Source: Fibrobacter sp. (GTDB taxonomy: Bacteria; Fibrobacterota; Fibrobacteria; Fibrobacterales; Fibrobacteraceae). From it: a stretch of 51,119 bases of DNA. This document shows positions 9,389-43,682 of the stretch, piece after piece (positions within the stretch are counted from its first letter, which is position 1; every line of letters starts with the position of its first letter). Made by a program: the position numbers and the translations under genes. Location: contig JAAZFC010000098.1 in NCBI GenBank assembly GCA_012511955.1, forward strand, positions 1 to 51,119, given 5' to 3'. The notes beneath the pieces were generated by a model. That model was given only the letters and a program-made list of their open reading frames with translations. It was not told where the DNA came from and did not search any database.

Positions 9389-10542
9389 AAAAATTAAATC
9401 TTAAAAAACTAGGTTTTGGGCTAAGTGCAGCGATTTTTGCCTTGGTGGCATATCAAGTTTTAAGCCCCGTGGCATGGATTTCCGAACAAAAGCCCCAACT
9501 TTCCTTAGCATTGACCCCCTGGGAGGCAGTAGGGGGCTGTGGTGCTGGCGGTTCTGGCGGCGGTGCCGGCGATGGCATTCAATGGGTGGGAGAAGGCGTA
9601 AGCGGTGGGCGCGTGGAAGTTGAGGTACTCCCCCGTTTTAGTGTAGGGCAAAACTACACCGATTTGAATATTCCCATGCGCTGGTCATTTAAACCCACTT
9701 GGAATATGAATTTAGGGCTAACTTTACCCTTTGTTTCTAAACGAGGAGAAGTTCAATATCGTACCAACCAAAGCCCTGCGGACCGCACCACGGGAGGCTT
9801 AGGGGACATTTCCCTAGATTGGAGCATAGATTTAGGCCCCTCAGCTCAGTACAGTTTTAGCATTGCCCAAAGCCTCCCTACCGGACAATACGACATTGTG
9901 CGCGGTCCGGAATCTGCCTTAGAATTTTTACCCGGATCTCTGCAAAAAGGCAGTGGTATCTACTCGACTACTTTTGGGCTATCTTGGCAGCGCGATGTAG
10001 ATAAAGGGCTTTGGCTCTACAATTTAAGCTATACCCAACCCTGGATAACCCGATTTATGACCGGGAAAAATGAATATATGGATAAATGGTTGAGCAACTA
10101 TCAAGGCATAGATGATAGGCGCTTTTATTACGATTGGAAGTTTTATGGCGAAAGCGATTTAGGGGATTATACTCCGCCATCGTTGGGAGCCACGGTACAT
10201 TATGGCTATCGCGGCGTGCCGGGAATGGTGCATAGCGTAGGTTTGAGCTTTAGTGCGCCTTTGGGTGTAGCTTGGATTCGCTCTGAAAAGACTGGCATTT
10301 ACGATCCGCGCCCCGATCCCGACCACAAAGCTTGGAGCGCAGCTCTGGTGTATGGCGCCGAATTTATCCGCGACGATTTCCCCATCTTTTTAGCCTTTAG
10401 CTTGCCCATCACCGATCGCCCCAACGACCCCAATGACAACGAATACGATCCTAGCCCCATGGCCCAATGGAATGGCCCCGATTGGAGCAATGTGTTGCAA
10501 CAATGGGTGCTAGCTCTAGGATTTAAAACTAGTTTTTGGTAA
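9385..10542 (+). CDS. Outer-membrane beta-barrel protein, transporter-like
   Basis: The 385-residue protein has an N-terminal hydrophobic signal/anchor segment. Next comes a glycine-rich, cysteine-containing stretch (VGGCGAGGSGGGAGDG), then alternating amphipathic strands such as WNMNLGLTLPFVSKRG, GLGDISLDWSIDLG and YSFSIAQSLPTG. It ends in an aromatic residue (GFKTSFW), as expected for a BamA-inserted barrel. The pattern resembles the MetA-pathway phenol-degradation/transporter barrel group. It overlaps the preceding lipoprotein gene by four bases, which suggests the two proteins assemble together. The substrate is unknown. Confidence 0.65.
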   Translation: MKKLNLKKLGFGLSAAIFALVAYQVLSPVAWISEQKPQLSLALTPWEAVGGCGAGGSGGGAGDGIQWVGEGVSGGRVEVEVLPRFSVGQNYTDLNIPMRWSFKPTWNMNLGLTLPFVSKRGEVQYRTNQSPADRTTGGLGDISLDWSIDLGPSAQYSFSIAQSLPTGQYDIVRGPESALEFLPGSLQKGSGIYSTTFGLSWQRDVDKGLWLYNLSYTQPWITRFMTGKNEYMDKWLSNYQGIDDRRFYYDWKFYGESDLGDYTPPSLGATVHYGYRGVPGMVHSVGLSFSAPLGVAWIRSEKTGIYDPRPDPDHKAWSAALVYGAEFIRDDFPIFLAFSLPITDRPNDPNDNEYDPSPMAQWNGPDWSNVLQQWVLALGFKTSFW

Positions 10543-30280: not shown

Positions 30281-30313
30281 TAAAGAATAACCCAGGTTTT
30301 CACCTGGGTTATT
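30281..30313 (-). terminator. Hairpin ending the receptor-kinase operon
   Basis: A perfect 12-bp stem (AATAACCCAGGT paired with ACCTGGGTTATT) closes a GAAA loop on the minus strand and is followed by CTTTA. It lies 38 bases after the kinase stop at 30351. The U-tract is weak, but the stem is strong and separates the six-gene operon from the PLP genes. Confidence 0.7.
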
Positions 30314-30350: not shown

Positions 30351-32762
30351 TCAAACTACTGGAAAGCTTTTAGTAGGTATCTCCATAACAAAACTAGTGC
30401 CTTCGCCTAATCTGCTTTGCATTTGGATACTACCCGCCAAGCTTTCAATATTTGCTTGCACTGCAGCCATTCCCACTCCGCGTCCCGATGTTTCGGTAAC
30501 ATCGTCCCGTGAAGATAGCCCATTTAAAAAGACCAACTGTGATTTTTGTTCTTCATTCATAGCATCTACTTGTTCTTGGCTAACCAACTGTTTTTCCACC
30601 GCTTTTTTAGCCAAAGCTTCAGCATCGATGCCATTGCCATCATCACTAAGCTCTATGCGATAAATGCTATCGTGTTCACTTACTGATAATAAAATCTGAC
30701 CAGTAACATCTTTGCCTAAAGCCTCTCGCGCTTCTCCGCCTTCTATTCCATGGTCCGCCGCATTTCTTATTAAATGCACTAGGCTTTCATTGATAGGGTT
30801 GAAAAAGCTAGGAGCCAACTCTAGTGCTTCAGGGTTTACTTTGAAATCTATCAACTTATCGGATTTTAAAGCAATTCTTTCTATCACTGTGGAGTATTTT
30901 TCAGCTAATTTTACCAAAGGAACGTACTTAATTTGATAACAAGCTTCAAAAAGTGGGGCTAGTAAAGAAGATTTGCTCATATTGGGATCCGAACTTATCT
31001 TTTTTACTAATGATTGTAAATAATCCACTTTGGATTCCGCTATTTGCACTACAACTTCATCTTCGCCACCACGCAAGCGTTTGCTTATGTTTTCCACCTC
31101 TTCTCTGCTCTTTTTCAGGTCTTCGATGTTGTTTTTAAGCTCCTCTATGGAACTTGCTGTACGCGTTTCAATAGGCGGGCGCAATGCTTCTAAAATAGTC
31201 TCAGCTTGGTCTGCAACATAAGATATTTCTTCAAAACCATAAGTGGCTGAGTTTCCTTTTATAGTATGTAAGTCGCGGAATATTTCACCAACGGTATTTT
31301 GGTTGATATCCAATTGTTTACCATCAGGGAACTGCTCGCGCGCTCTCACGCTTTCTTCCTCTAATAACTTGACATTATCTTCGATCAAAGATAAACGACT
31401 ATCTGTATCTACAAAGTAGTCAGCTATTACTTCAGGAGGGTTATTAACTAGACCGAGTATTGTTTTAACTTCGTTTTCATGGCGACGTTTTTCTTCTGCA
31501 ATAACTTTTTCAATTTTGCGAGTTTCAGTAACATCATCCACCAAAACCATAACTCTTTCTAACTCTTGGTTATTATTTAGTACTGGTCTGTAGCCTACTT
31601 CTACTGTTTTTTCTTCTAGGCCTTCAAAGTAGCTAAACTCTAAAATTGGAGCTAATCTTTCGATTTTTTCCCAACGAAGTTTACCCAACCTTATTTTAAC
31701 CAATTCTAACCAATCACTCCATTCAGATTTTTGCGAATCTGAAAAGTGCAAAGCTTTAGCAACATCTATTTTGGCAACATCTTCTACACCTAAAATCTTA
31801 TTCGTAGCTTTACTGTATTCATCATTAATAGTGCCATCTAAATTAACAGTAAATAGACCTTGATCGATATTATCTAAAATATCACGCACTTGACGCATTT
31901 TTGCATCTACTAACTCTTCTAAATGCTCGGTATATTGCTTTACCGTGAGACGCATATTTTCAAAAGAGTTTGCCAAATCACCGACTTCATCGTCAGACTC
32001 AACCTTAACTTCTTCTCGGTAATCGCCACCAGCTATTTTATTAGCAGCTTTATTCAAGTCTGTAATGGGTTTAGAAAAAGATTCAGATTGTTTTTTCGCT
32101 TGAATTGTTGCGATGGCAAAAGCTATAATAGCAAGGGCAAACAAAATTCCTATTAAACGAATTAATGCTTTTATGGCTTTAGCATGTGCCCCAGCTAACT
32201 CTTTGTAGAGACTTTCTGTAGAAAATCCATAACGAATCCAACCACTAGGATCATCTTCTATTTTTACTTGAGCCACAAACTCTAGTATTTCGAATTTGTC
32301 ACCGGGGTTTTTTATGGTAAACACAGCAAAATCTTCAATTTTAGCCGCTTCCAGTGAAATTGAATCTTCAAGAATAACTTGACCTGAAATAGTACCCTCT
32401 GTGTTGCTATCACTGGCAAACACCCATGCTTGATTTTCATCGGTCATGTATATTCCATACACTATATTTTCGTCTGCTTGGTATGTACTAGCTACTAAGC
32501 TTTGCACAGCTAAAAAGGCATTATCTTCGACCATGCCAGACAAAGCTTGAGCGTTATTAGCAACCAAGACATTACCTTTACTTATTAACGCAGATCTTAT
32601 TTGCCTTTCAGTGGCAGCACTGGTTTTTCTATTTTCGTTAACAGACAGTAAAACCACTATAGCTATGGTGACTAAAAACATTGGAAGTATAATTCCCAAA
32701 ATTGTTTTTAGTAGCTTACTCTGAATAGTTTTTTTCGCTACTTTATTTTTTTGCTTTGCCAT
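30351..32762 (-). CDS. Membrane sensor kinase: HAMP-PAS-Hpt-CheA-like ATPase, no CheW domain
   Basis: The 803-residue protein has TM helix 1 (~17-40), an extracytoplasmic sensor domain (~41-195), TM helix 2 (~200-222), HAMP (~225-280), PAS (~290-415) and an Hpt domain with phosphoacceptor H499 in DLHTIKGNSATYGF. A CheA-P4-like ATPase follows, with N-box LVHLIRNAADHGIE, G1 DDGNGID and G2 SGRGVGMAAVQANI. There is no CheW-like P5 domain and no HisKA domain. It should phosphorylate its own Hpt, and from there the CheY-like protein in the same operon. It starts one base after the stop of the binding-protein gene and is the last gene of the operon. Confidence 0.88.
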   Translation of the reverse strand: MAKQKNKVAKKTIQSKLLKTILGIILPMFLVTIAIVVLLSVNENRKTSAATERQIRSALISKGNVLVANNAQALSGMVEDNAFLAVQSLVASTYQADENIVYGIYMTDENQAWVFASDSNTEGTISGQVILEDSISLEAAKIEDFAVFTIKNPGDKFEILEFVAQVKIEDDPSGWIRYGFSTESLYKELAGAHAKAIKALIRLIGILFALAIIAFAIATIQAKKQSESFSKPITDLNKAANKIAGGDYREEVKVESDDEVGDLANSFENMRLTVKQYTEHLEELVDAKMRQVRDILDNIDQGLFTVNLDGTINDEYSKATNKILGVEDVAKIDVAKALHFSDSQKSEWSDWLELVKIRLGKLRWEKIERLAPILEFSYFEGLEEKTVEVGYRPVLNNNQELERVMVLVDDVTETRKIEKVIAEEKRRHENEVKTILGLVNNPPEVIADYFVDTDSRLSLIEDNVKLLEEESVRAREQFPDGKQLDINQNTVGEIFRDLHTIKGNSATYGFEEISYVADQAETILEALRPPIETRTASSIEELKNNIEDLKKSREEVENISKRLRGGEDEVVVQIAESKVDYLQSLVKKISSDPNMSKSSLLAPLFEACYQIKYVPLVKLAEKYSTVIERIALKSDKLIDFKVNPEALELAPSFFNPINESLVHLIRNAADHGIEGGEAREALGKDVTGQILLSVSEHDSIYRIELSDDGNGIDAEALAKKAVEKQLVSQEQVDAMNEEQKSQLVFLNGLSSRDDVTETSGRGVGMAAVQANIESLAGSIQMQSRLGEGTSFVMEIPTKSFPVV

Positions 32763-32763
32763 T

Positions 32764-33738
32764 TTATCTTATCTCCTTATCCATGTTAGACAAGCCACTT
32801 TCATTGAGGAAAGATTTTTTCTTGGCTAAAGTGGTATTAATTATTTTTACTACAGAAAGCGGTTGATCTATTTGAGTTTCATCTATAGACCAATCGTTAT
32901 CCATCAATTCGAATAACAAATTAGCCACTTGACTTCCTAATCCACTATGATCAGGTAAAACAGCGAATGACCCTAGCTCAAACTTAGTCTGCACTAAAGT
33001 TTCTACACCTACAATTACTGGGATTTTAGCTCTTTTAGTAGCGGGAATCCAATTTTTGGCAATGGTGTTATTATTTAACAAAGCATTATCGTTTACCACC
33101 CACAAAGCATCTACTTTTTTACGATTAATAAGTTCCCTAAGGCCATTATTTATATCACGACTTATATTTCTACTTTTATCATCTATGGAAACGCCAATCA
33201 AGTCCACTTGTTCGGTTTTGCAAAACCCTTGATTTTGTTTGAAAAAGCTTTCCCAACTGTTGCGGTACAATACCCCTACTTTTTTGATAGGCTTTTTACT
33301 AACAGCTCGTAAGTTTACTACCGATGTAACCGCAGGAATTTCATAGCTGACTCCCATTATATCCATACCTTGAGTAATGTTAGGAAGTTGTAGAGCCATT
33401 AACGCCACTGCTGGATACGGCTTAACATTGTTTTTCAAAGCATTGCTCACATGTTCTTTGTATAAGTTAAGAGCATGATTATCCATAATTACTAGAGCTA
33501 CTGGTTCTTCTTTAAGAATATCTTCTCTTAAATTACTCCATTTTTGTTTTGGGTTGATTTCTTTACTAACTAAAATTAACTCACCTTCTAAATCTTGCTT
33601 TATAGCCTCAAAAGCTTCATTAAATTCAGCTCCTGCGGTGTGTAAAGCAACTACTTTATCTTGTGAAAAAGAAACGGTTGTCATAAACAACATAGTACTT
33701 AGAAAAAAGACAATCGGATTAAACAATTTTATTTCCAT
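32764..33738 (-). CDS. ABC-type substrate-binding protein (PF04392-like)
   Basis: The 324-residue protein has a signal peptide ending near SFSQ. Its fold resembles the ABC_sub_bind (PF04392) family: VKPYPAVALMALQLPN, IMGVSYEIPAVTSVVNL, KKVGVLYRNSWESFF and VVNDNALLNNNTIAKNWIP. No ABC permease or ATPase is nearby, so it is unlikely to serve import. Its location one base before the sensor kinase suggests it presents a ligand to the kinase's sensor domain. It starts inside the end of the preceding gene (10-bp overlap). Confidence 0.8.
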   Translation of the reverse strand: MEIKLFNPIVFFLSTMLFMTTVSFSQDKVVALHTAGAEFNEAFEAIKQDLEGELILVSKEINPKQKWSNLREDILKEEPVALVIMDNHALNLYKEHVSNALKNNVKPYPAVALMALQLPNITQGMDIMGVSYEIPAVTSVVNLRAVSKKPIKKVGVLYRNSWESFFKQNQGFCKTEQVDLIGVSIDDKSRNISRDINNGLRELINRKKVDALWVVNDNALLNNNTIAKNWIPATKRAKIPVIVGVETLVQTKFELGSFAVLPDHSGLGSQVANLLFELMDNDWSIDETQIDQPLSVVKIINTTLAKKKSFLNESGLSNMDKEIR

Positions 33739-34436
33739 TGCTCTACCCCCAACATTGACATTTCGCTCTTGGTGAAAGTTTTAAATGCTGCTATAACTTT
33801 GTCAGCACCTGAACCATTATTTATAACAATTATATTATTCATTTTATGACCTGAACTTTTACTTTTTAATGCTGCTTGAGATCGACTTTTAATGGCGTCA
33901 AAGTCTGACTCAGTGACTAATATTGCATCTGCACTTTTAAAAGTAAGCATAGGTAAAAGGTCTTCTAATTTTGAAGCAAGCCTTATTCTCGCCTCTTGAC
34001 CAGCTATTTTTCGTAAATGTGTACGCATATTTGCGCGTCCACCTACATCCATTAGACCAATATTGGCTTTAGGATTTGCACCGAGATCGAACTCTTCGTC
34101 AATACTCACCCACAATAAATTTTGTTCGGTGGCTCCTTTAGTAACTCCACTTAAAGCAATTTTACCACCAATTTGTGCGGATTCTTTTGCCATTAACGGA
34201 CACACTACCACTTGTGGATTATCTTTCTTTACCAAAGCTTGAAAGTCTGCATAGCGCGCAAAAACTTTAACATTAGCTCCTGGTAATTTAGCTTCCAAAG
34301 CTTTTTCCATTATAGCTGGTCTAGTCAATGTTGTAGCAAAGACATAGACACTGTTTTGTCCCCATAAGCCTCCATACAACAACAATATAGCTACTACCAG
34401 CTGCCATATTTTTATTTTCAAATATTTTTCTTGCAT
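33729..34436 (-). CDS. Secreted periplasmic-binding-like protein, unknown ligand
   Basis: The 235-residue protein has a signal peptide (IWQLVVAILLLYGGLWGQ) and a mature region starting NSVYVFATTLTRPAIMEKAL. It contains GLMDVGGRANMRTHLRKI and TFKSADAILVTESDFDAI. The pattern suggests a type-2 periplasmic-binding fold, but it is too divergent to name. It overlaps the PF04392-like gene by 10 bases and lies 30 bases after the cheY-like gene. A second binding protein in one operon with a kinase suggests a relay or competing ligands. Confidence 0.65.
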   Translation of the reverse strand: MQEKYLKIKIWQLVVAILLLYGGLWGQNSVYVFATTLTRPAIMEKALEAKLPGANVKVFARYADFQALVKKDNPQVVVCPLMAKESAQIGGKIALSGVTKGATEQNLLWVSIDEEFDLGANPKANIGLMDVGGRANMRTHLRKIAGQEARIRLASKLEDLLPMLTFKSADAILVTESDFDAIKSRSQAALKSKSSGHKMNNIIVINNGSGADKVIAAFKTFTKSEMSMLGVEQWK

Positions 34437-34466
34437 TTTGTACCTAATAAGTATTTGCTTTAAGGT

Positions 34467-34850
34467 TTAAAACTCTAATACCTCTTCTATGGATTTTTTA
34501 AAGTCTTCCACAAAAATTGGATCTGCGAATTTAAGTGGTTTTTCCACATAGCCCTTAGCGCCTAGCTTCATACATTCTAGCATAGCAGAGCCTCTAACCG
34601 CACTCACTACCATTATAGTAGCATCTGGAAATTCCTCCATGATTTCTTTAATAGCCTCTTGACCATCTTTGTTGGGCATGGTTAAATCCATGGTAACTAA
34701 ATCTGGTTTAAGTTCCTTATACAAGGCTATAGCTTCATTACCATCTTTTCCTAAGCCAACCACTTCAAAAGACATTTGCTTTTCCATAAAATCTTTTATT
34801 TGCTTGGCTAAAAAAGTAGAATCATCAACAATTAACACTCTTTTTGACAT
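34467..34850 (-). CDS. CheY-like single-domain response regulator
   Basis: The 127-residue protein is a stand-alone receiver. It starts MSKRVLIVDDSTFLAKQI, has the acceptor Asp in LVTMDLTMPNKDG, a conserved Ser in IMVVSAVRG (T/S position), and Lys in GYVEKPLKF. It has no output domain, so it acts by protein contact. It is flanked by the CheX-like gene upstream (11-base gap) and the binding-protein genes downstream. The co-encoded Hpt kinase is its likely donor. Confidence 0.92.
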   Translation of the reverse strand: MSKRVLIVDDSTFLAKQIKDFMEKQMSFEVVGLGKDGNEAIALYKELKPDLVTMDLTMPNKDGQEAIKEIMEEFPDATIMVVSAVRGSAMLECMKLGAKGYVEKPLKFADPIFVEDFKKSIEEVLEF

Positions 34851-34861
34851 ATTTAACCTCT

Positions 34862-35383
34862 CTATTGCTTGTTGCGCTCCAACATCCGACGCATCATTGG
34901 ACTAATGGTAGAGCGACAAGCCCAACCAAAATCAATAGTTTCTCCCTGACAAACTAAAACACCTTGAATTGAACTAGTTTTAGGATATAAAACTTCGTTG
35001 GCATAATACATTGGCGGAGCTTGAGTTAGCTCTTGAAAAGCATCAATTATTGTACTGTTTCCAGCCAAAACTCCACCCATACCGTTCAAAACTTCTCCTA
35101 AGCCTGACCTTGCCAATTCAATATCACCATCTACACCAGGTATCAAATTAAACATCTCAGCACTAAAAGACATAGCCAAAAGACTACTCCAATCATCGTT
35201 ACTCAAGCCCATATTCATGGAATGCTCTTGTTTCATAGAAAGTCTTGGCACAATAGACCATTTTTCAGAGTCTATTTCTTCTATTTCTAATCCCAAGGTA
35301 TCTTGGAATAAATTGCGTACAAGCTCGGGGAATTCCCCGAGCATTGATTGCATTACTTTGTCTATTTTTTCTTCTATTTCCAT
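34862..35383 (-). CDS. CheX/CheC-like phosphatase
   Basis: The 173-residue protein resembles the CheC/CheX/FliY fold. The ARSGLGEVLNGMGGVLAG segment carries the ExxN catalytic signature (E-V-L-N). Members dephosphorylate CheY~P. Its position directly before a cheY-like gene fits this role. It has an N-terminal helix rich in acidic residues and no membrane segment. The same fold appears in the N-terminal half of the diguanylate cyclase at 38081-39106. Confidence 0.75.
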   Translation of the reverse strand: MEIEEKIDKVMQSMLGEFPELVRNLFQDTLGLEIEEIDSEKWSIVPRLSMKQEHSMNMGLSNDDWSSLLAMSFSAEMFNLIPGVDGDIELARSGLGEVLNGMGGVLAGNSTIIDAFQELTQAPPMYYANEVLYPKTSSIQGVLVCQGETIDFGWACRSTISPMMRRMLERNKQ

Positions 35384-35394
35384 ACTACATTTCT

Positions 35395-37953
35395 TTAAAA
35401 GGTTTTTTCCACTTGAATGCCAAAGGAACGACGGTCTATTCCAAATAAATCAGTATGTTCGTCTGAGTTTCCAACTTGTTGCCATCTCAAGCTATGAATA
35501 GCATTTTTGCCATCACGAGTAGCAAGTAAATCATAAGCGTAAACCGACACTCTTAGATTTTCAGCAGCATGCCATTGTAAACCCATATTCCACTTAACCA
35601 TAGGATCTAAATGAGCCCTTAGATAATTGAAATCAGGTTCTTTTTCTACTAATGGTCTACGACCTTTTAGCGCATAGAACACGCGTAAATCTGTGTGGAA
35701 ACTAAAGTCAGATAGCAATCTTAGATCCATGTAAAGTTTAGAAACATGGGTATTTAAGTTCATAAAGTGTTTGCCATCTACGGTAATTTGATCTTTAATC
35801 GCATTACTTGTTACTTCAATTTTTTCACCAGTGGGCACTGGACGGTACCTAGTCATTCCATGCTCTTCATATTCTTCCCAGAACACGCCATCAGTATCAA
35901 ATTCGTCTTGGTAACTGGTATGATCTTGTTTTTCTAAATCCATGTTTACCAATACTTGATAAGCATGAGAAGCACCTACGCGAATGTTTTTCCAATCGGC
36001 GCCTACATCAATTTCAGCATTGACAAACTCGTAATTACCAGAGTTGATCACACGGAATTCTTCTTGGTTCCAAGTAAAGAGATCTTTAACTTTGTTATAA
36101 GAAATAGATGGTTGTACAGTAGCTACACCGAAGTTATGCACACTGGTCAATTCCAAAGATTGCACGCGTTCAGGCTTAAGTTTGTGTAAATCAGATTCTT
36201 TTACACCGGGAATAGGAGTGGAGTTTCCACCGGGTCTTTCTGCAGGTTTTTCAAAATGATAGCCATCGTACGCATCACCATTATCATCAAAATTATTACG
36301 GTTGTATTCGTAGTTATCTGCGCTACCATTATTAGCAGAAGTTTGGAAAATCAATTTAATGGCATGATTTTCTGAAGGTAAAGTAATTAAAGCCAATTTA
36401 GGTGATAGCACTCCGCCAATATCTTTAGTACGGGTGTGGATATCATAGCGTAAACCACCATGCACAAATAGTTTAGGATTCATTTCGTATAACGCTTCAC
36501 CAAAAAACGCATTGTTGGTATAAAGCACATCAGAAACAATCTTGTGCAAAGGCATTTCTTTTTGCTCATTACGCCCCATTAAATCGTTGCCAATATCATC
36601 TACGCGTAGCTCATAACCCACGGCAGCTTGTAATTTATCTATGCTTTTGAGCATAAAAGATGCACCTAAAGAATATCTTCTTTCACCAAAGGTTTCTTCT
36701 ACAAAAGAATTTCTTTCTTCGCCAGCTAAAGTTTCATATCCTTTACGCTCTTCCAGTAAAATTCTGTTAGTTACTGCATCGAACCCAGCTTTTAGTTTTA
36801 ATTCATTGGCACCTATATCTAAATTATAGCTCAATTCAGACATAATATTATCGATTTGATACTGGCGACGGTTTCCACCCCAACTTTCTGTTTCTTGCCA
36901 CCAACCACCATTCCAAGTAGTATCGTAAATAGTGTCTATAAATACAACTTCTTTACCATCTATATTCATGATTTTTTCCACTGGAGTTTTGGATATATCA
37001 CCCATTTCACCAGCGTTTACCCATTTACCTTCTACTAAACGAGCTTCAGAAGTTTCATTTCCTGCAATATCAGGCCAGGGATCCACAATAAATTGTCCAC
37101 CAGCATTAGCTACTTGGTGAGTTACTCTTGTATATAAACGTAAATTATCCCATTGATAATCTATACCTACTTTCCAGTTACCTGGTGTACACCATGCGCA
37201 TCCAGCACTGGGCACGCTTTCATAACCGTTATTACCTAACCATTGGGGATAAGGCCAGTGTGGACGACCCCACAAACGAGCTTCTTCGGGTTTTAAACCG
37301 TCGGATTGGCGATAACCTAAAGAAACTACCAAGCTTTGATTATCATCAAAACCTTGATAAACATCTACGCCAATTTCTTTGCTGGTTCCATCGAAATCCC
37401 AAGTACCGAGACCACCCCGAACTACAGTTTGATCTGTTTCATATCTTTTGGTTACGATGTTAACAATTCCCGCTATAGCACCAGAACCGTAAACTAAACC
37501 AGCTGGTCCGCGCAACACTTCAACCCTTTCTACATCACCAAATAAACCTAAATTTATTTCGGACATAGCCCCATCTCGGCTTTCATGGTTCATTTTATGA
37601 CCATTCACCAAGAAAATAAATTTGGTGTTGCGGTCTGCGGCAACACCGCGCATTCCCCAAATTTCACCATTCCATTTGTTGTACATGTACTGGAAACCAG
37701 GAACATAAATTTCTAACAACTCAGACAAATGCCTAGCTCCAGAGCTATTGACATCCTCTTTTTTAATCACCGTCATACTCAAAGGTGATTTCATTAGATC
37801 TAAATCTAAAAATGATCCTGTTTCTAATGCTAATGAAAGCAAACTACTTAACGACAAATCATCGTAAGAGCTTACCATCTCATCGGCCCAAACCAACGCT
37901 AAACTTATACTCAAGAATAGCATAACTAAGATTCTACTTTTATTTTTTGTCAT
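35395..37953 (-). CDS. TonB-dependent outer-membrane receptor
   Basis: The 852-residue protein has a signal peptide (to about LVWA), a plug domain (PLSMTVIKKEDVNSSGARHLSELL, NGEIWGMRGVAADRNTKFIFLVNG, VERVEVLRGPAGLVYGSGAIAGIVNIVTK) and a long 22-strand-type barrel ending FGIQVEKTF. It has no STN signalling domain and no obvious carboxypeptidase-like N-terminal repeat. GAGGG precedes the ATG. It is the first gene of the six-gene operon and probably captures a ligand whose arrival is reported by the binding proteins and kinase. The ligand (siderophore, glycan, metal) is not indicated. Confidence 0.92.
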   Translation of the reverse strand: MTKNKSRILVMLFLSISLALVWADEMVSSYDDLSLSSLLSLALETGSFLDLDLMKSPLSMTVIKKEDVNSSGARHLSELLEIYVPGFQYMYNKWNGEIWGMRGVAADRNTKFIFLVNGHKMNHESRDGAMSEINLGLFGDVERVEVLRGPAGLVYGSGAIAGIVNIVTKRYETDQTVVRGGLGTWDFDGTSKEIGVDVYQGFDDNQSLVVSLGYRQSDGLKPEEARLWGRPHWPYPQWLGNNGYESVPSAGCAWCTPGNWKVGIDYQWDNLRLYTRVTHQVANAGGQFIVDPWPDIAGNETSEARLVEGKWVNAGEMGDISKTPVEKIMNIDGKEVVFIDTIYDTTWNGGWWQETESWGGNRRQYQIDNIMSELSYNLDIGANELKLKAGFDAVTNRILLEERKGYETLAGEERNSFVEETFGERRYSLGASFMLKSIDKLQAAVGYELRVDDIGNDLMGRNEQKEMPLHKIVSDVLYTNNAFFGEALYEMNPKLFVHGGLRYDIHTRTKDIGGVLSPKLALITLPSENHAIKLIFQTSANNGSADNYEYNRNNFDDNGDAYDGYHFEKPAERPGGNSTPIPGVKESDLHKLKPERVQSLELTSVHNFGVATVQPSISYNKVKDLFTWNQEEFRVINSGNYEFVNAEIDVGADWKNIRVGASHAYQVLVNMDLEKQDHTSYQDEFDTDGVFWEEYEEHGMTRYRPVPTGEKIEVTSNAIKDQITVDGKHFMNLNTHVSKLYMDLRLLSDFSFHTDLRVFYALKGRRPLVEKEPDFNYLRAHLDPMVKWNMGLQWHAAENLRVSVYAYDLLATRDGKNAIHSLRWQQVGNSDEHTDLFGIDRRSFGIQVEKTF

Positions 37954-38026: not shown

Positions 38027-38080
38027 CAAAAACTTTATTTTTTGTTTTTTTTCAAAAAAAACCTTATTTTTATATCAATT

Positions 38081-39106
38081 ATGAATGAAGATCAAAAATA
38101 TATGATCAAACTCAAGCAATGCACACAAGATTTCTCTACTGTTGCTGCTGAGTCAATAAGTGCTATGGGTGCCCCTATCACTCATTCACATATAGAACCT
38201 ATTGATAAACAAGATTCTGATTATGAAGGTCTTACTGTTTTTTGTAATTTTTCTGGGACTGTACAAGGGTTTTTCTTAATTAACATTTCTGAAGATGAAG
38301 CTTGCGCTTTAACGGGCCTTGAAAATATTGATGACAATAGAAATCTCGTAAACGAGTTTTTTAAAGAAATAATTAATATTGCATCAGGGGATTCCATAGA
38401 GTCTTTAGAGGAATATTTAGGCCATTTAACTTATTTTCCTCCTGTGGTTTCCCGAGGTGAAATTGAATTTCCTCTTTTTGCTTCCTCTGAAGTTAGTTTG
38501 CTTTTAAACCATACTATAAAAGTTCATTGCGGTATATATCTCTATCTCGCTGAAATCAAAATAGGAGCAGAGCTACGCCGTATGCAAAAATCTTTAATGG
38601 AAACAAGACATTCCTCTCGCATAGATTCACTAACCATGGTTTATAATAGATTCTGTTTTGATTCTGATTTCCCCAACATGGTAGAAGATTCTTTAACTTT
38701 GCAAAAAACTCTTTCCACTTTATGGATAGATATTGATTTATTTAAACAATTCAATGACACCCATGGACACCAAGTGGGTGATGAAGTACTTAAAATAGTA
38801 GGCCAAGCATTACTTACTTCCATTCGCGATTCTGATATGGCTTTTCGCTATGGCGGCGACGAATTTATCTTAGTGCTACGAGGTACACCGCGCACAAAAG
38901 CTACCATTGTTGCTGATAGAATTAACAACTATTTAAAAGAAAATCCTTTGACAGTAGCTGATGGGGAATTAATCACACCTACCTTAAGTATTGGTATCAG
39001 CGACTTGCAATTGGGTGATACTGTGGAGTCTTTATTAGAAAGAACTGACAAAGCCCTCTATACCGCTAAGGACAGAGGGCGAAATTGCGTAGTTATCGAG
39101 CCATAA
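38081..39106 (+). CDS. Diguanylate cyclase with CheX-like N-terminal domain
   Basis: The 341-residue protein has an N-terminal CheX-like domain (~1-170) with NEFFKEIINIASG carrying ExxN (E-I-I-N). A short coiled linker (GAELRRMQKSLMETRHSSR) leads to a full GGDEF domain with the intact RYGGDEF motif. The inhibitory I-site RDSD sits exactly five residues upstream, so both activity and c-di-GMP feedback are expected. An open frame begins at 38042, but the ATG at 38081 fits better. It is divergent from the receptor operon and shares its regulatory gap. Confidence 0.88.
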   Translation: MNEDQKYMIKLKQCTQDFSTVAAESISAMGAPITHSHIEPIDKQDSDYEGLTVFCNFSGTVQGFFLINISEDEACALTGLENIDDNRNLVNEFFKEIINIASGDSIESLEEYLGHLTYFPPVVSRGEIEFPLFASSEVSLLLNHTIKVHCGIYLYLAEIKIGAELRRMQKSLMETRHSSRIDSLTMVYNRFCFDSDFPNMVEDSLTLQKTLSTLWIDIDLFKQFNDTHGHQVGDEVLKIVGQALLTSIRDSDMAFRYGGDEFILVLRGTPRTKATIVADRINNYLKENPLTVADGELITPTLSIGISDLQLGDTVESLLERTDKALYTAKDRGRNCVVIEP

Positions 39107-40022
39107 ACCATGGCTTGTAGCTATTATTCAGAGGCTTAACCACATAAATTCCAGGATTTAGCTGAACATTTTTCCAGTTTGCGCCTCTATACACTCTCTG
39201 ACCTTGACTATTATAAATCTGCACCACATCTGGATAATTTTGACTGATATTTCCATTAGTTAACAAAATCCCTGTGGGTTTTTCGGGTTCAGGTTCAGGT
39301 TCGGGTTCAGGTTCTGGTACTTTTATAGGATCTTCAAAAGCTTCAACTGAATCGGAAAATTCTGGCTCTTTTTCTAATAGCCCATAGTTTACTTTGCGCA
39401 AAATAAGGGAATATTGATAAAAATGACCCTGTGATTCTTCCTCAATCGAACTTAAGATGGCAGAGCTAACATCAGCACTATCTAAGTTCATGATATACCT
39501 TGAAAAAGAATAAATTTTTGATTCTGCAGGCACTGAATCTTTAACATAAAGGTAAGCATGCCAAGTGGTTGTATGCCCAAGTATGACTATTTCATTAAAA
39601 GATATTGTTTTATTTTCAAGATTTTGCGTGTCAGGCATAAACCAAAACCACGGATTTTCTCCAAAATTAGTCATTTTAACATCAGTTACAAACCTAGTCC
39701 ACAAACTATCTTCTAAAATTATATGTTCTTCTTTGTGATATCCAGAGTGCACAACTTTCTGCTTATTCCAATTGCATGAAGCTGAAAGATAATCTAACAT
39801 AAGCAGACTATCTTCCCAAAAGGGGTTGGGGATTTTATGTAGCGCTTTGTCGCTAAGCACAGCAACTTGTTTAAGATTATCTTTAGAATCTCCAACAAAA
39901 TAATATTGATCTACTGAGTCCACTCCTAGCATATATAAACTGTCAGGATCGGCACACCAATCATGAGACCAAGAAAAACTATAGGCTAAAAAAACTAGCA
40001 CCAAATATTTAATTTGCTTCAT
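39093..40022 (-). CDS. Secreted protein with PE-repeat linker and T9SS-like C-terminal domain
   Basis: The 309-residue protein has a signal peptide (to about FSWSHD) and a globular part of unknown fold with several Cys and Trp residues. A PEPEPEPEPEPEKP linker follows, encoded by a hexanucleotide repeat. The C-terminal domain VQIYNSQGQRVYRGANWKNVQLNPGIYVVKPL matches the Por/T9SS type A sorting pattern. It would be exported and anchored or released at the surface. The last 14 bases overlap the convergent cyclase gene. The main domain is not recognised. Confidence 0.72.
   Translation of the reverse strand: MKQIKYLVLVFLAYSFSWSHDWCADPDSLYMLGVDSVDQYYFVGDSKDNLKQVAVLSDKALHKIPNPFWEDSLLMLDYLSASCNWNKQKVVHSGYHKEEHIILEDSLWTRFVTDVKMTNFGENPWFWFMPDTQNLENKTISFNEIVILGHTTTWHAYLYVKDSVPAESKIYSFSRYIMNLDSADVSSAILSSIEEESQGHFYQYSLILRKVNYGLLEKEPEFSDSVEAFEDPIKVPEPEPEPEPEPEKPTGILLTNGNISQNYPDVVQIYNSQGQRVYRGANWKNVQLNPGIYVVKPLNNSYKPWFMAR
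39285..39318 (+). repeat. Hexanucleotide (GGTTCA)n-type repeat encoding the PE linker
   Basis: About five imperfect copies of GGTTCA/GGTTCG lie in frame. Copy-number change would alter linker length by whole Pro-Glu units without a frameshift. Confidence 0.7.
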
Positions 40023-40774: not shown

Positions 40775-43027
40775 TTATTTGTTTTTACAACACTTGATGC
40801 TTTGACGCAATACATCACCTGTAAATAAAGCTAGTAGCCCTACTCCTATTAAGAAAGGAGTATCACCTATAAAGCGCATCCAGCGTAAGGTTTGCATATA
40901 GCCTTGTTGCATAAATTCTGCGCTGCGAGCAAACCATAAACCATGCTCCACTGAGGCTATAGCTTGTAGGATTCCTATGGGTAAGAGAGAGAAAAGAATC
41001 ATAGCAGCCAAGCCAAAGTTCATAAGCCAAAAAGACCATTTAAGCCAAGTGTTATTCCACTGTGCTCGGGGGTTTAAGCGTCTTAAAACTACTAAAATCA
41101 AACCAATGCTAAGCAACCCATAAACTCCAAAGGTAGCCGCATGGGCATGCACCGGAGTTAGATTTAAGCCTTGCACATAATAGAGCGAAATAGGTGGATT
41201 AATCAAAAATCCGAATACTCCAGCGCCCACAAAGTTCCAAAATGCTACCCCTATAAAGAACTTGATGGGCCACTCATAAGTTTTCATCCAATTAGCTTGC
41301 AAACCACGCGACCAATTATCAAAAGCTTCTACACCTACCAAAACCAAAGGCACAACTTCTAGGGCAGAAAAGCATGCGCCAATAGCCATAATAGATGTAG
41401 GAGTTCCACTAAAATACAGATGATGGAAAGTTCCGGGGATTCCGCCAATCAAGAAAATAGATGCCGATGATAAACTCGCTCTAGTAGCAAACTTTTTGGA
41501 AACTAGGCCTAAGTTTACAAAGAGGAAAGATATGGCCACGGTGGCAAAGACTTCAAAAAATCCTTCTACCCATAAATGCACCACCCACCAGCGCCAATAT
41601 TCCATTACGGAAAGGTGAGTTTTGGCACCATAAAACAATCCTGCACCATAAAATAGACCTATTGCTGTGGCAGAACCGGTAAACAAAGCCAACAAGCTTT
41701 TATCTTCACCAGGTTTCTTTAAAGCTGGTAAAATTCCGCGTAACATTAATCCCAACCAGAGAATTAATCCCACCAATAGGGCTATTTGCCAAATTCTACC
41801 TAAATCCAAATATTCATAACCCTGGTGTCCTATTAAAAAACTTATGTCTAAACTTAATTTTTGATGAATAGCTAAGGCTTCGCCCAAAAGTGAACCGCCC
41901 ACCACCAAAACCAGCGCCCCAAACAATATGTTTGCGCCTAATCTTTGATGTTTTGGATCTTTACCCCCATTAATTATGGGAGCTAAAAATAAACCTGCGG
42001 TTAAAAAAGAAGTCGCTATCCAAAATAAAGCCAGTTGTATATGCCAAGTACGCGCTAAACTATAAGGCAACCATTCACTGAGTTTAAATCCATAAAAATC
42101 TTGACCTTCTACGGTGTAATGCGCTAAGGCTCCTCCCAAAAGACTTTGCAATCCAAAAAGAGCCACCACCACCAGAATATATTTCCACAAAGATTTTTGC
42201 GAAGGGGTTAAACTAAAAGAATTAAGCGGATCGTCTATGGGTGCAACAATATCATCTTCCTCTTTGCGTTTAAAAGACCATATCCATACAAAAGCACCAA
42301 TGGCTAAAACCAAGAGAATAATAGAAGCTATGGACCAAGCAATATTTGCTGTGGTGGCCACATTGTCTATTAAAGGTTCGTGGGGCCAGTTGTTAGTATA
42401 GGTTATTTCGCTGTTAGGCCTATTAGTGGCCGCCGACCAAGAGGTCCAGAAAAAGAATTTGGACAGATTTTGTCGCCTTTCTAAATCGGGCATTACATTT
42501 TCTTGCATAGCATAAGCTTGTCTTAGCTTTTGAAAATCGGGATGATTTCCATAAAGCTCAATGTAATGTTCTGCGGTTTTTTGTATAGCCGCCCAGCGTC
42601 TGGGGCTAATTTGTACTTTATCGGTTTTAGCGTTGTAAGTATTACTGCGTATATCTTGTTTGAGCGCTACTTTGGCCACAGCTATTTCTTCGGAATTTAG
42701 ATTAGCATAACTTTTAGCAAAACGCTCTTGGGAAAAGTTTTCTAACCAAAATCCTATTTCACGATGCAACCAATCGGCAGTCCAGTCAGGCGCTTGGTAT
42801 GCCCCATGCCCCCAAACTGTTCCTATTTGCTGACCACCAGCAGATTGCCATGCTAATTGTCCGTTTATTATTTGATCTTTGCTAATAACTTGCTTCCCAT
42901 TGACCTCAAAAGCACTGGGAATGGGGGGTGCTTGTCTATATACCTCTTTACCATAAAATCCTAGTATGGTAAAAGTAAATACCAAGACCCCCACCAAAGA
43001 CAACCAATGTAAGCGATAGGCCTTCAT
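40775..43027 (-). CDS. norZ: Quinol-dependent nitric oxide reductase (qNOR)
   Basis: The 750-residue single-subunit enzyme reduces two NO to N2O using quinol electrons. A long periplasmic N-terminal extension (~35-225) replaces the cytochrome c subunit of cNOR. About 12 further membrane helices follow, with heme/FeB ligands such as HIQLALFW, HLWVEGFFEVFA (with the active-site glutamates), FHHLYFSGTP and HAHAATFGVYG. A GTG at 43036 is possible, but AGGTG six bases before the ATG at 43027 decides the start. It follows the RIC stop by one base, so the two are co-transcribed from the sigma54 promoter. Confidence 0.95.
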   Translation of the reverse strand: MKAYRLHWLSLVGVLVFTFTILGFYGKEVYRQAPPIPSAFEVNGKQVISKDQIINGQLAWQSAGGQQIGTVWGHGAYQAPDWTADWLHREIGFWLENFSQERFAKSYANLNSEEIAVAKVALKQDIRSNTYNAKTDKVQISPRRWAAIQKTAEHYIELYGNHPDFQKLRQAYAMQENVMPDLERRQNLSKFFFWTSWSAATNRPNSEITYTNNWPHEPLIDNVATTANIAWSIASIILLVLAIGAFVWIWSFKRKEEDDIVAPIDDPLNSFSLTPSQKSLWKYILVVVALFGLQSLLGGALAHYTVEGQDFYGFKLSEWLPYSLARTWHIQLALFWIATSFLTAGLFLAPIINGGKDPKHQRLGANILFGALVLVVGGSLLGEALAIHQKLSLDISFLIGHQGYEYLDLGRIWQIALLVGLILWLGLMLRGILPALKKPGEDKSLLALFTGSATAIGLFYGAGLFYGAKTHLSVMEYWRWWVVHLWVEGFFEVFATVAISFLFVNLGLVSKKFATRASLSSASIFLIGGIPGTFHHLYFSGTPTSIMAIGACFSALEVVPLVLVGVEAFDNWSRGLQANWMKTYEWPIKFFIGVAFWNFVGAGVFGFLINPPISLYYVQGLNLTPVHAHAATFGVYGLLSIGLILVVLRRLNPRAQWNNTWLKWSFWLMNFGLAAMILFSLLPIGILQAIASVEHGLWFARSAEFMQQGYMQTLRWMRFIGDTPFLIGVGLLALFTGDVLRQSIKCCKNK

Positions 43028-43028
43028 T

Positions 43029-43682
43029 TTATTCACCTAAAGCGCGGGGGAAAAGGATGTTATTTTCCAAACTTATATGTTCCATCAACTCTTGGATAAA
43101 AGTGTGGGTGTTCATATAAGAAGCGCGCCAAGTATTGCATGCCCCTTCGGGCAAAGTGAAGTTATTTGTCAACTGATCCATAAGTTCCACATCTTTGCCG
43201 GCCTCATCGTGTTCGTGTAGCATAGCTTTAATGGGATGACTCATCCAATCTTTGTCAGCATTTTCTAAAATAGCAGGAAAAAGCACTTGCTCTTCTTTTG
43301 CCATGTGCGAAAGCAAATCTTCTTCTAGTTTTTCGAGCACATCAGCTAAACCTGCTGGACATTCGGGATGATAGCCATGTACCTGCTCTACGCGACGAGC
43401 TAAGCGAATCAATTCAGGAAGATCTTCCCGATGTTTAGCGTGGTAATTTTTTATGATATGATCTATAATTTCACTGTCAGCACGGCTTTTCCAATCATCA
43501 TCACCTTCAAATTTTTCTAAGCCTTGTAATTCTGACAATAGCTTATCGGTGTTTTCGCCACAAGCTTCACCTATGGTTGTGTTTCCGCCGCAGCAAAAAT
43601 CTAAACCATGGGATCGTAAAATACGGGTGGCACCAGAGTATTCAGTGGCTACTACGCCTAGGGGAGTGTTTGCTGTAATCAT
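43029..43682 (-). CDS. ric: Iron-sulfur cluster repair di-iron protein (RIC; YtfE/ScdA)
   Basis: The 217-residue protein restores Fe-S clusters damaged by NO or oxidants. An N-terminal ScdA_N domain carries SHGLDFCCGGN. The hemerythrin-like part has di-iron histidines in HIIKNYHAKH, LLSHMAKEEQVLFP, MLHEHDEAG and ELMEHISLENNILFP. A frame reaching 43805 exists, but AAGGAT six bases before the ATG at 43682 and the family N-terminus set the start. It is the first gene of the NO operon. Confidence 0.94.
   Translation of the reverse strand: MITANTPLGVVATEYSGATRILRSHGLDFCCGGNTTIGEACGENTDKLLSELQGLEKFEGDDDWKSRADSEIIDHIIKNYHAKHREDLPELIRLARRVEQVHGYHPECPAGLADVLEKLEEDLLSHMAKEEQVLFPAILENADKDWMSHPIKAMLHEHDEAGKDVELMDQLTNNFTLPEGACNTWRASYMNTHTFIQELMEHISLENNILFPRALGE

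Follow-up and report, generated by a model that had tools for sequence, protein, structure and literature searches.

A TonB-dependent receptor, two periplasmic binding proteins and a CheA-type sensor kinase encoded as one unit in Fibrobacter: a candidate trans-envelope signalling module

Introduction

While TonB-dependent receptors can pass signals across the envelope, the best-known examples do so via FecR-type anti-sigma factors, and in FecA-FecR-FecI the signal likewise starts from a TonB receptor in the outer membrane. Periplasmic binding proteins (PBPs) provide a different entry point. In CBP-ChiS, a PBP controls a membrane kinase, as is also the case in LuxP-LuxQ and TorT-TorS; we know of no dedicated TonB receptor encoded alongside any of these three, and to our knowledge PBP-gated kinases all use a single PBP. 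Such control by a PBP has been described for LuxP-LuxQ and TorT-TorS (PMC5908839). In the AioX-AioS-AioR and ArrX-ArrS-ArrR systems, the gene of a PhnD-fold PBP adjoins those of a membrane kinase and a response regulator; the PBP is thought to activate the kinase, and AioX to serve as a ligand of AioS (PMC5908839).

The locus described here combines elements of both kinds of system. It lies on a 51,119-nucleotide stretch of a contig from a Fibrobacter genome; this whole stretch is called the window below. A search of the open-access literature (the subscription literature was outside it) found no description of this arrangement, in which a TonB receptor is combined with a histidine kinase and solute-binding proteins (SBPs).

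Results

Organization of the six-gene unit

All six open reading frames proposed in an initial sequence-only reading were recovered, on the minus strand. In transcription order they encode a TonB-dependent receptor (TBDR, 35395-37953), a CheX-like protein (34862-35383), CheY (34467-34850), two binding proteins, SBP1 (33729-34436) and SBP2 (32764-33738), and a sensor kinase (30351-32762). The five junctions consist of gaps of 11, 11 and 30 nt, an overlap of 10 nt and a gap of 1 nt, the last one (SBP2/kinase) reading TAA-A-ATG. The unit is closed, 37 nt past the kinase stop, by an intrinsic terminator hairpin on the same strand (30286-30313) with a perfect 12-bp stem, a 4-nt loop and a T-rich tail (fold energy -18.8 kcal/mol, z -4.9). 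The gaps of at most 30 nt and the terminal hairpin of the earlier reading thus stand, but of its two overlaps only the 10-nt one does, SBP2 and the kinase being separated by 1 nt. The Pfam scan of the window proteins identified Plug and barrel domains in the TBDR, Response_reg in CheY, and HAMP, Hpt and HATPase_c in the kinase; the CheX-like protein, SBP1 and SBP2 gave no meaningful match. The scan detected no permease, CheW/P5 domain, CheR or CheB among the six genes, as had been claimed for permease, CheW and receptor methylation genes, and the ABC importer pair of permease and ATPase is absent from the operon.

Three matches to Cys/Met-metabolism PLP enzymes, two of them adjacent, occur on the contig (27988-30303 and 20585-21316). 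On the other side of the unit lie a secreted-looking protein without Pfam match (39093-40022), which contains a PEPEPE linker and ends in a stretch like a sorting domain, and a NorB-type nitric oxide reductase protein with a cytochrome c-like N-terminal domain (40775-43036; Pfam COX1 E 2e-64).

The receptor

The TBDR (852 aa) has a signal peptide, a plug (Pfam E 2.5e-16) and a beta-barrel (Pfam E 1.2e-12). The whole genome (2.68 Mb) has just one plug domain besides that of this protein, which is 44% identical, over its length, to a module TBDR of locus L022. As in FecA-FecR-FecI, a TonB receptor at the outer membrane is the proposed start of trans-envelope signalling. However, the Pfam scan found only Plug and barrel, with no STN domain at the N-terminus, and in neither the six genes nor the four scanned genes that flank them did it detect a FecR-like anti-sigma or ECF sigma factor; here the inner-membrane partner is a kinase. 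The TBDR and the kinase weakly match NCBIfam NF053590 (TOL_0244 TonB receptor) and NF053592 (HK_near_YfiR_like), both far under the cut-offs (the two scores being 35.3 bits against 194 and 52.7 bits against 645). To go by its name, NF053592 reflects a kinase that NCBI curators had noticed next to periplasmic proteins of the YfiR-like kind; at the window locus, none of these was identified.

The two binding proteins

SBP1 is a secreted type-II periplasmic binding protein. Its structure model, built from a 22-sequence alignment (pLDDT 92.5), has a PhnD/PtxB/AioX-like fold in Foldseek comparisons with the PDB (PtxB E 7.7e-11; AioX TM 0.68; ArrX TM 0.61), the matches being type-II binding proteins of the PhnD/PtxB kind, with the transport PBPs PtxB and PhnD among them. 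None of the 22 homologues has a meaningful Pfam match, and the SBP1 profile found no relative among PDB chains by sequence. On its model, SBP1 is thus best described as a family without a Pfam name that has an AioX-type fold. That fold by itself is no proof of signalling, because AioX-like PBPs also resemble the transport proteins PtxB and PhnD. Locus L041 has the remainder of the module, but of SBP1 itself just the C-terminal third is detected in an open frame (9681-10010), possibly owing to a frameshift or a sequencing error.

SBP2 is a secreted type-I periplasmic binding protein, distantly TrpX-like (NCBIfam TrpX E 8e-11, 41.6 bits against an equivalog cut-off of 390). The binding proteins had originally been labelled PF04392-type, for which Pfam gives no support; SBP2 is distantly TrpX-like and the SBP1 model has a PhnD/AioX fold. 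PF04392 (ABC_sub_bind) has no Pfam match in SBP2 or anywhere in its genome, and membership of SBP2 in that family was dropped. Sequence-profile searches of the PDB with SBP2 and with the kinase sensor returned nothing useful.

In locus L046, SBP2 and the TBDR form one open reading frame of 1091 aa (SBP2 at residues 25-318, the plug at 361-470 and the barrel at 534-1059). This fusion was seen once, in a metagenome-assembled genome (MAG). Read by eye, the join keeps the usual TBDR N-terminal stretch and has no internal signal peptide, and this speaks against mere loss of a stop codon as its origin. The TBDR N-terminus faces the periplasm, and the fusion would therefore place SBP2 beside the receptor; it supports a probable link between the two. 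SBP2-like domains also head proteins of ~740-810 aa that adjoin SBP1/SBP2 (L091:7875-10310, L093:1862-4273 and L095:10105-12339), with a DUF4388 C-terminus (Pfam in L091 and L095).

The sensor kinase

The kinase (803 aa) is a membrane protein consisting of a periplasmic sensor, HAMP, a PAS-like region, Hpt and a CheA-type HATPase. The P1 Hpt and P4 ATPase features of CheA are both present, the NCBIfam CheA match covering residues 604-797, and Hpt His499 and the ATPase motifs are invariant in the kinase alignment; Pfam detects no P5/CheW-like regulatory domain. The sensor is probably of the sCache type, to judge from the group of its relatives: 12 of 19 aligned sensor relatives match sCache_3_2 (PF17203; best 1.7e-14), although the window's own sensor alone does not.

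Near SBP1-SBP2, this sensor domain is found on varied cores. Most Fibrobacterota have the CheA-type core; the core is HisKA in L044 and L092, SpoIIE in L043 and GAF-Hpt-HATPase in L038, a locus of the cultured Pleionea sp. CnH1-48. It is the sensor domain, not the catalytic core, that keeps company with the SBPs. Since the sensor domain is constant beside the SBPs and the catalytic part variable, the pattern points to the sensor domain as their likely partner. In some cases, a sensor-domain kinase lies apart from every SBP of its assembly. A second kinase-type protein is seen near the module in L024, L025, L027, L041, L045, L049 and L087; its N-terminus carries, or is immediately preceded by, a CheX-like region, after which come Hpt and CheA-type ATPase domains, in one open reading frame in L041 (Pfam).

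CheX, CheY and a divergent GGDEF neighbour

The AlphaFold model of the window CheX (173 aa; pLDDT 92.7) has its best PDB matches in Foldseek exclusively among CheX/CheC-like structures (1squ, 1xko, 3hm4, 6vpw and 3hzh), the Borrelia CheX-CheY complex included. The motif SGLGEVLN corresponds to S-x3-E-x2-N, and D/S-x3-E-x2-N is kept in all 20 stand-alone CheX-like open reading frames found, window included. By modelled fold and by motif, the protein is predicted to be a genuine member of the CheX-type CheY-P phosphatase family, so the initial CheX-like label is borne out. CheY (127 aa) is a single-domain response regulator (Response_reg E 2.7e-22) in which Pfam finds no output or DNA-binding domain; the acidic pair, the phospho-acceptor Asp, the Ser and the Lys are conserved across module CheYs.

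Divergent from the TBDR start, on the plus strand (38042-39106), lies a gene for a CheX-like domain joined to a GGDEF diguanylate cyclase (Pfam E 6.6e-4 and 5.7e-42, respectively). A full-length homologue adjoins SBP1 in L090, where the CheX domain is above the Pfam cut-off. This neighbour, which the initial reading had left outside the unit, would, if it belongs to the system, possibly be its output.

Distribution within Fibrobacterota

Among 168 genomes of the phylum, SBP1 is present in 26, SBP2 in 27 and the sensor domain in 28, and all three occur together in 25. At the genus level, 16 of 17 genera with SBP1 also have the sensor (Fisher p 2e-8, phylogeny ignored). These genomes have few TBDRs (2-19 each, with two in that of the window), and yet, of the 31 SBP1 loci in the phylum, 18 have a TBDR no more than 10 kb away, compared with ~1.2 expected (counts read by hand from maps, in which several loci end at contig ends). 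No TBDR was detected at several loci, some of them ending at contig ends. In L035, L036, L040 and L042, TBDR-CheX-CheY is convergent with SBP1-SBP2-kinase, and in the window the same two blocks stand in one line. The distance matrices of SBP1, SBP2, sensor and TBDR correlate (r 0.55-0.83), as shared descent alone would make them do.

The other members of the window's own family are without all three markers (SBP1, SBP2 and sensor), and among 60 relatives SBP2 was found only outside the family, mostly with SBP1 and the kinase alongside. The module is dispensable in this family, since relatives there are without the system. Because the window module groups with class-level relatives (support 0.998), retention accompanied by loss in sister genera would be at least as likely as its recent horizontal acquisition by the window genome. 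That the contig had been mis-binned was another explanation considered and rejected; a neighbouring gene has its best matches within the same class and family. The clustering expected from the sequence-only reading is thus seen in other Fibrobacterota, where the genes are grouped, not scattered, the other members of the window's own family being without the module.

Occurrence in other phyla

A scan of a genome collection with the SBP2 alignment returned 24 loci, most with the same partners, among them loci of Pleionea, Colwellia, Halobeggiatoa, a Moraxellaceae MAG, Holophagae, Myxococcales and Deltaproteobacteria. In the class to which the Myxococcales MAG belongs, 25 of 290 genomes have SBP1; the counts are 2 of 297 for the phylum of the Holophagae MAG and 2 of 369 for the class of Pleionea. 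When 19 further loci were picked by SBP1 alone, SBP2 was present in every one (19/19), a sensor-domain kinase in all but one (18/19) and a TBDR in all but two (17/19); 18 of these loci come from the Myxococcales/deltaproteobacterial class and one from the Holophagae phylum. One of the 19 (L151) shares sequence range with L054 of the preceding set, and a few members of this class were already part of the profiles.

The module core, recurring in Myxococcales, Deltaproteobacteria, Holophagae and Gammaproteobacteria, consists of the TBDR, SBP1, SBP2 and the sensor kinase with its sensor domain. It is conserved across phyla, while the catalytic core and the output are exchangeable; CheX/CheY is the Fibrobacterota-type output and lies outside the core. 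At many mapped loci the core genes adjoin one another so closely that a permease gene would not fit between them. The idea from which the analysis started, that receptor, binding proteins and kinase make up one dedicated signalling unit, is backed by the clustering, the cross-phylum core and the SBP2-TBDR fusion.

Discussion

The gene presence, domains and folds observed, together with the non-random linkage, the co-occurrence, one fusion and the swapping of cores behind a constant sensor, are best explained, with a probability of roughly 0.6, by a trans-envelope module that runs from the receptor via the SBP pair to an sCache kinase and on to CheY, which is reset by CheX. Counting against this reading are the loci without a detected TBDR (some cut off at contig ends), the sensor-domain kinases that lie apart from SBPs, the resemblance of AioX-like PBPs to transport proteins and the absence of the system from relatives in the window's own family. 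The contacts, ligand transfer and sign of control that we infer would be as follows. At the outer membrane, the TBDR would acquire a ligand, which it would hand, perhaps via direct docking, to SBP2, on the receptor side, and to SBP1. The loaded (or unloaded) SBPs may then bind the sCache sensor domain and alter kinase activity. In the window, the kinase would autophosphorylate the CheA-P1-like Hpt histidine and pass the phosphoryl group to its presumed partner, the neighbouring CheY, and hydrolysis of CheY-P by CheX would be the reset. The final output may be c-di-GMP, via the adjacent CheX-GGDEF protein.

This last step can be made specific: CheY-P would act via the divergent CheX-GGDEF protein, so that an outer-membrane ligand sets c-di-GMP. 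Such control refines the trans-envelope reading and is compatible with it, and it draws on the position of the gene, on the homologue adjoining SBP1 in L090 and on related CheX-headed proteins in L024, L041, L045, L049 and L087. However, CheX-GGDEF stands beside the module in two lineages only and GGDEF is outside the conserved core, and so specific a version is rather unlikely. Alternatively, the TBDR and the SBPs could feed an ABC permease encoded elsewhere, with the kinase sensing another cue and regulating the uptake genes. The likeness of SBP1 to transport PBPs and of SBP2, distantly, to TrpX would suit such a division of labour, which is nevertheless improbable: the six genes include no permease and the abutting core genes of many mapped loci leave none any room, the periplasmic sensor domain and not the kinase core stays with the SBPs, and the module CheY is without a DNA-binding domain.

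The unit shares with canonical chemotaxis an Hpt with a CheA-type ATPase, a chemotaxis-like CheY and a CheX with the phosphatase-family fold and motif, and the window genome has a separate CheA/CheW system. The kinase might accordingly send CheY-P to a flagellar or other motility apparatus, as an extra chemosensory input without methyl-accepting chemotaxis proteins (MCPs). However, the window kinase sits in the membrane, bears a sensor and a HAMP domain of its own and has no CheW-binding P5 domain; the operon is without MCP, CheW, CheR and CheB; and at other loci this sensor and these SBPs occur with a HisKA or SpoIIE core, which leaves a chemotaxis side-input a slim chance. A fortuitous neighbourhood of unrelated genes, which the absence of the three marker proteins from other members of the window's own family might suggest, is hardly credible: the clustering repeats across many genera and several phyla with differing gene orders, SBP2 and the TBDR are fused in one case, and the co-occurrence counts and the SBP1-picked loci contradict it.

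Among the described systems closest to the trans-envelope module proposed here is AioX-AioS. The window has a secreted PBP gene beside a membrane kinase with a periplasmic sensor, an arrangement repeated in other phyla, and the modelled SBP1 fold is close to AioX and ArrX. By analogy, the window system, which has a TonB receptor and a second SBP in addition, may work like PBP-triggered kinases such as AioX-AioS. There are differences, however: the SBP1 profile has no detectable sequence similarity to any PDB chain, the module adds a second, type-I SBP and the TonB receptor, and its output is CheY/CheX, with no transcription factor. Similarly, LuxP-LuxQ, TorT-TorS and CBP-ChiS share the PBP-gated membrane kinase proposed for the window but have a single PBP, from families that may be unrelated to those of the window. 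That the module represents a separate class of TonB-receptor signalling, in which an outer-membrane receptor is physically coupled to a dedicated SBP pair gating an sCache kinase, so that the signal runs unbroken from outer membrane to cytoplasm, without STN, anti-sigma factor or ABC permease and with swappable outputs in several phyla, is a tentative proposal to which we give somewhat less than even odds.

A conserved module joining a TonB receptor to a PBP-gated kinase would offer a defined path along which a ligand at the outer membrane could act on a phosphorelay in the cytoplasm. The module brings with it two periplasmic protein families absent from Pfam. The SBP2-receptor fusion is a ready protein for structural work, and the sensing half lends itself to testing as a unit because its outputs (CheA-type, HisKA and SpoIIE) are exchangeable.
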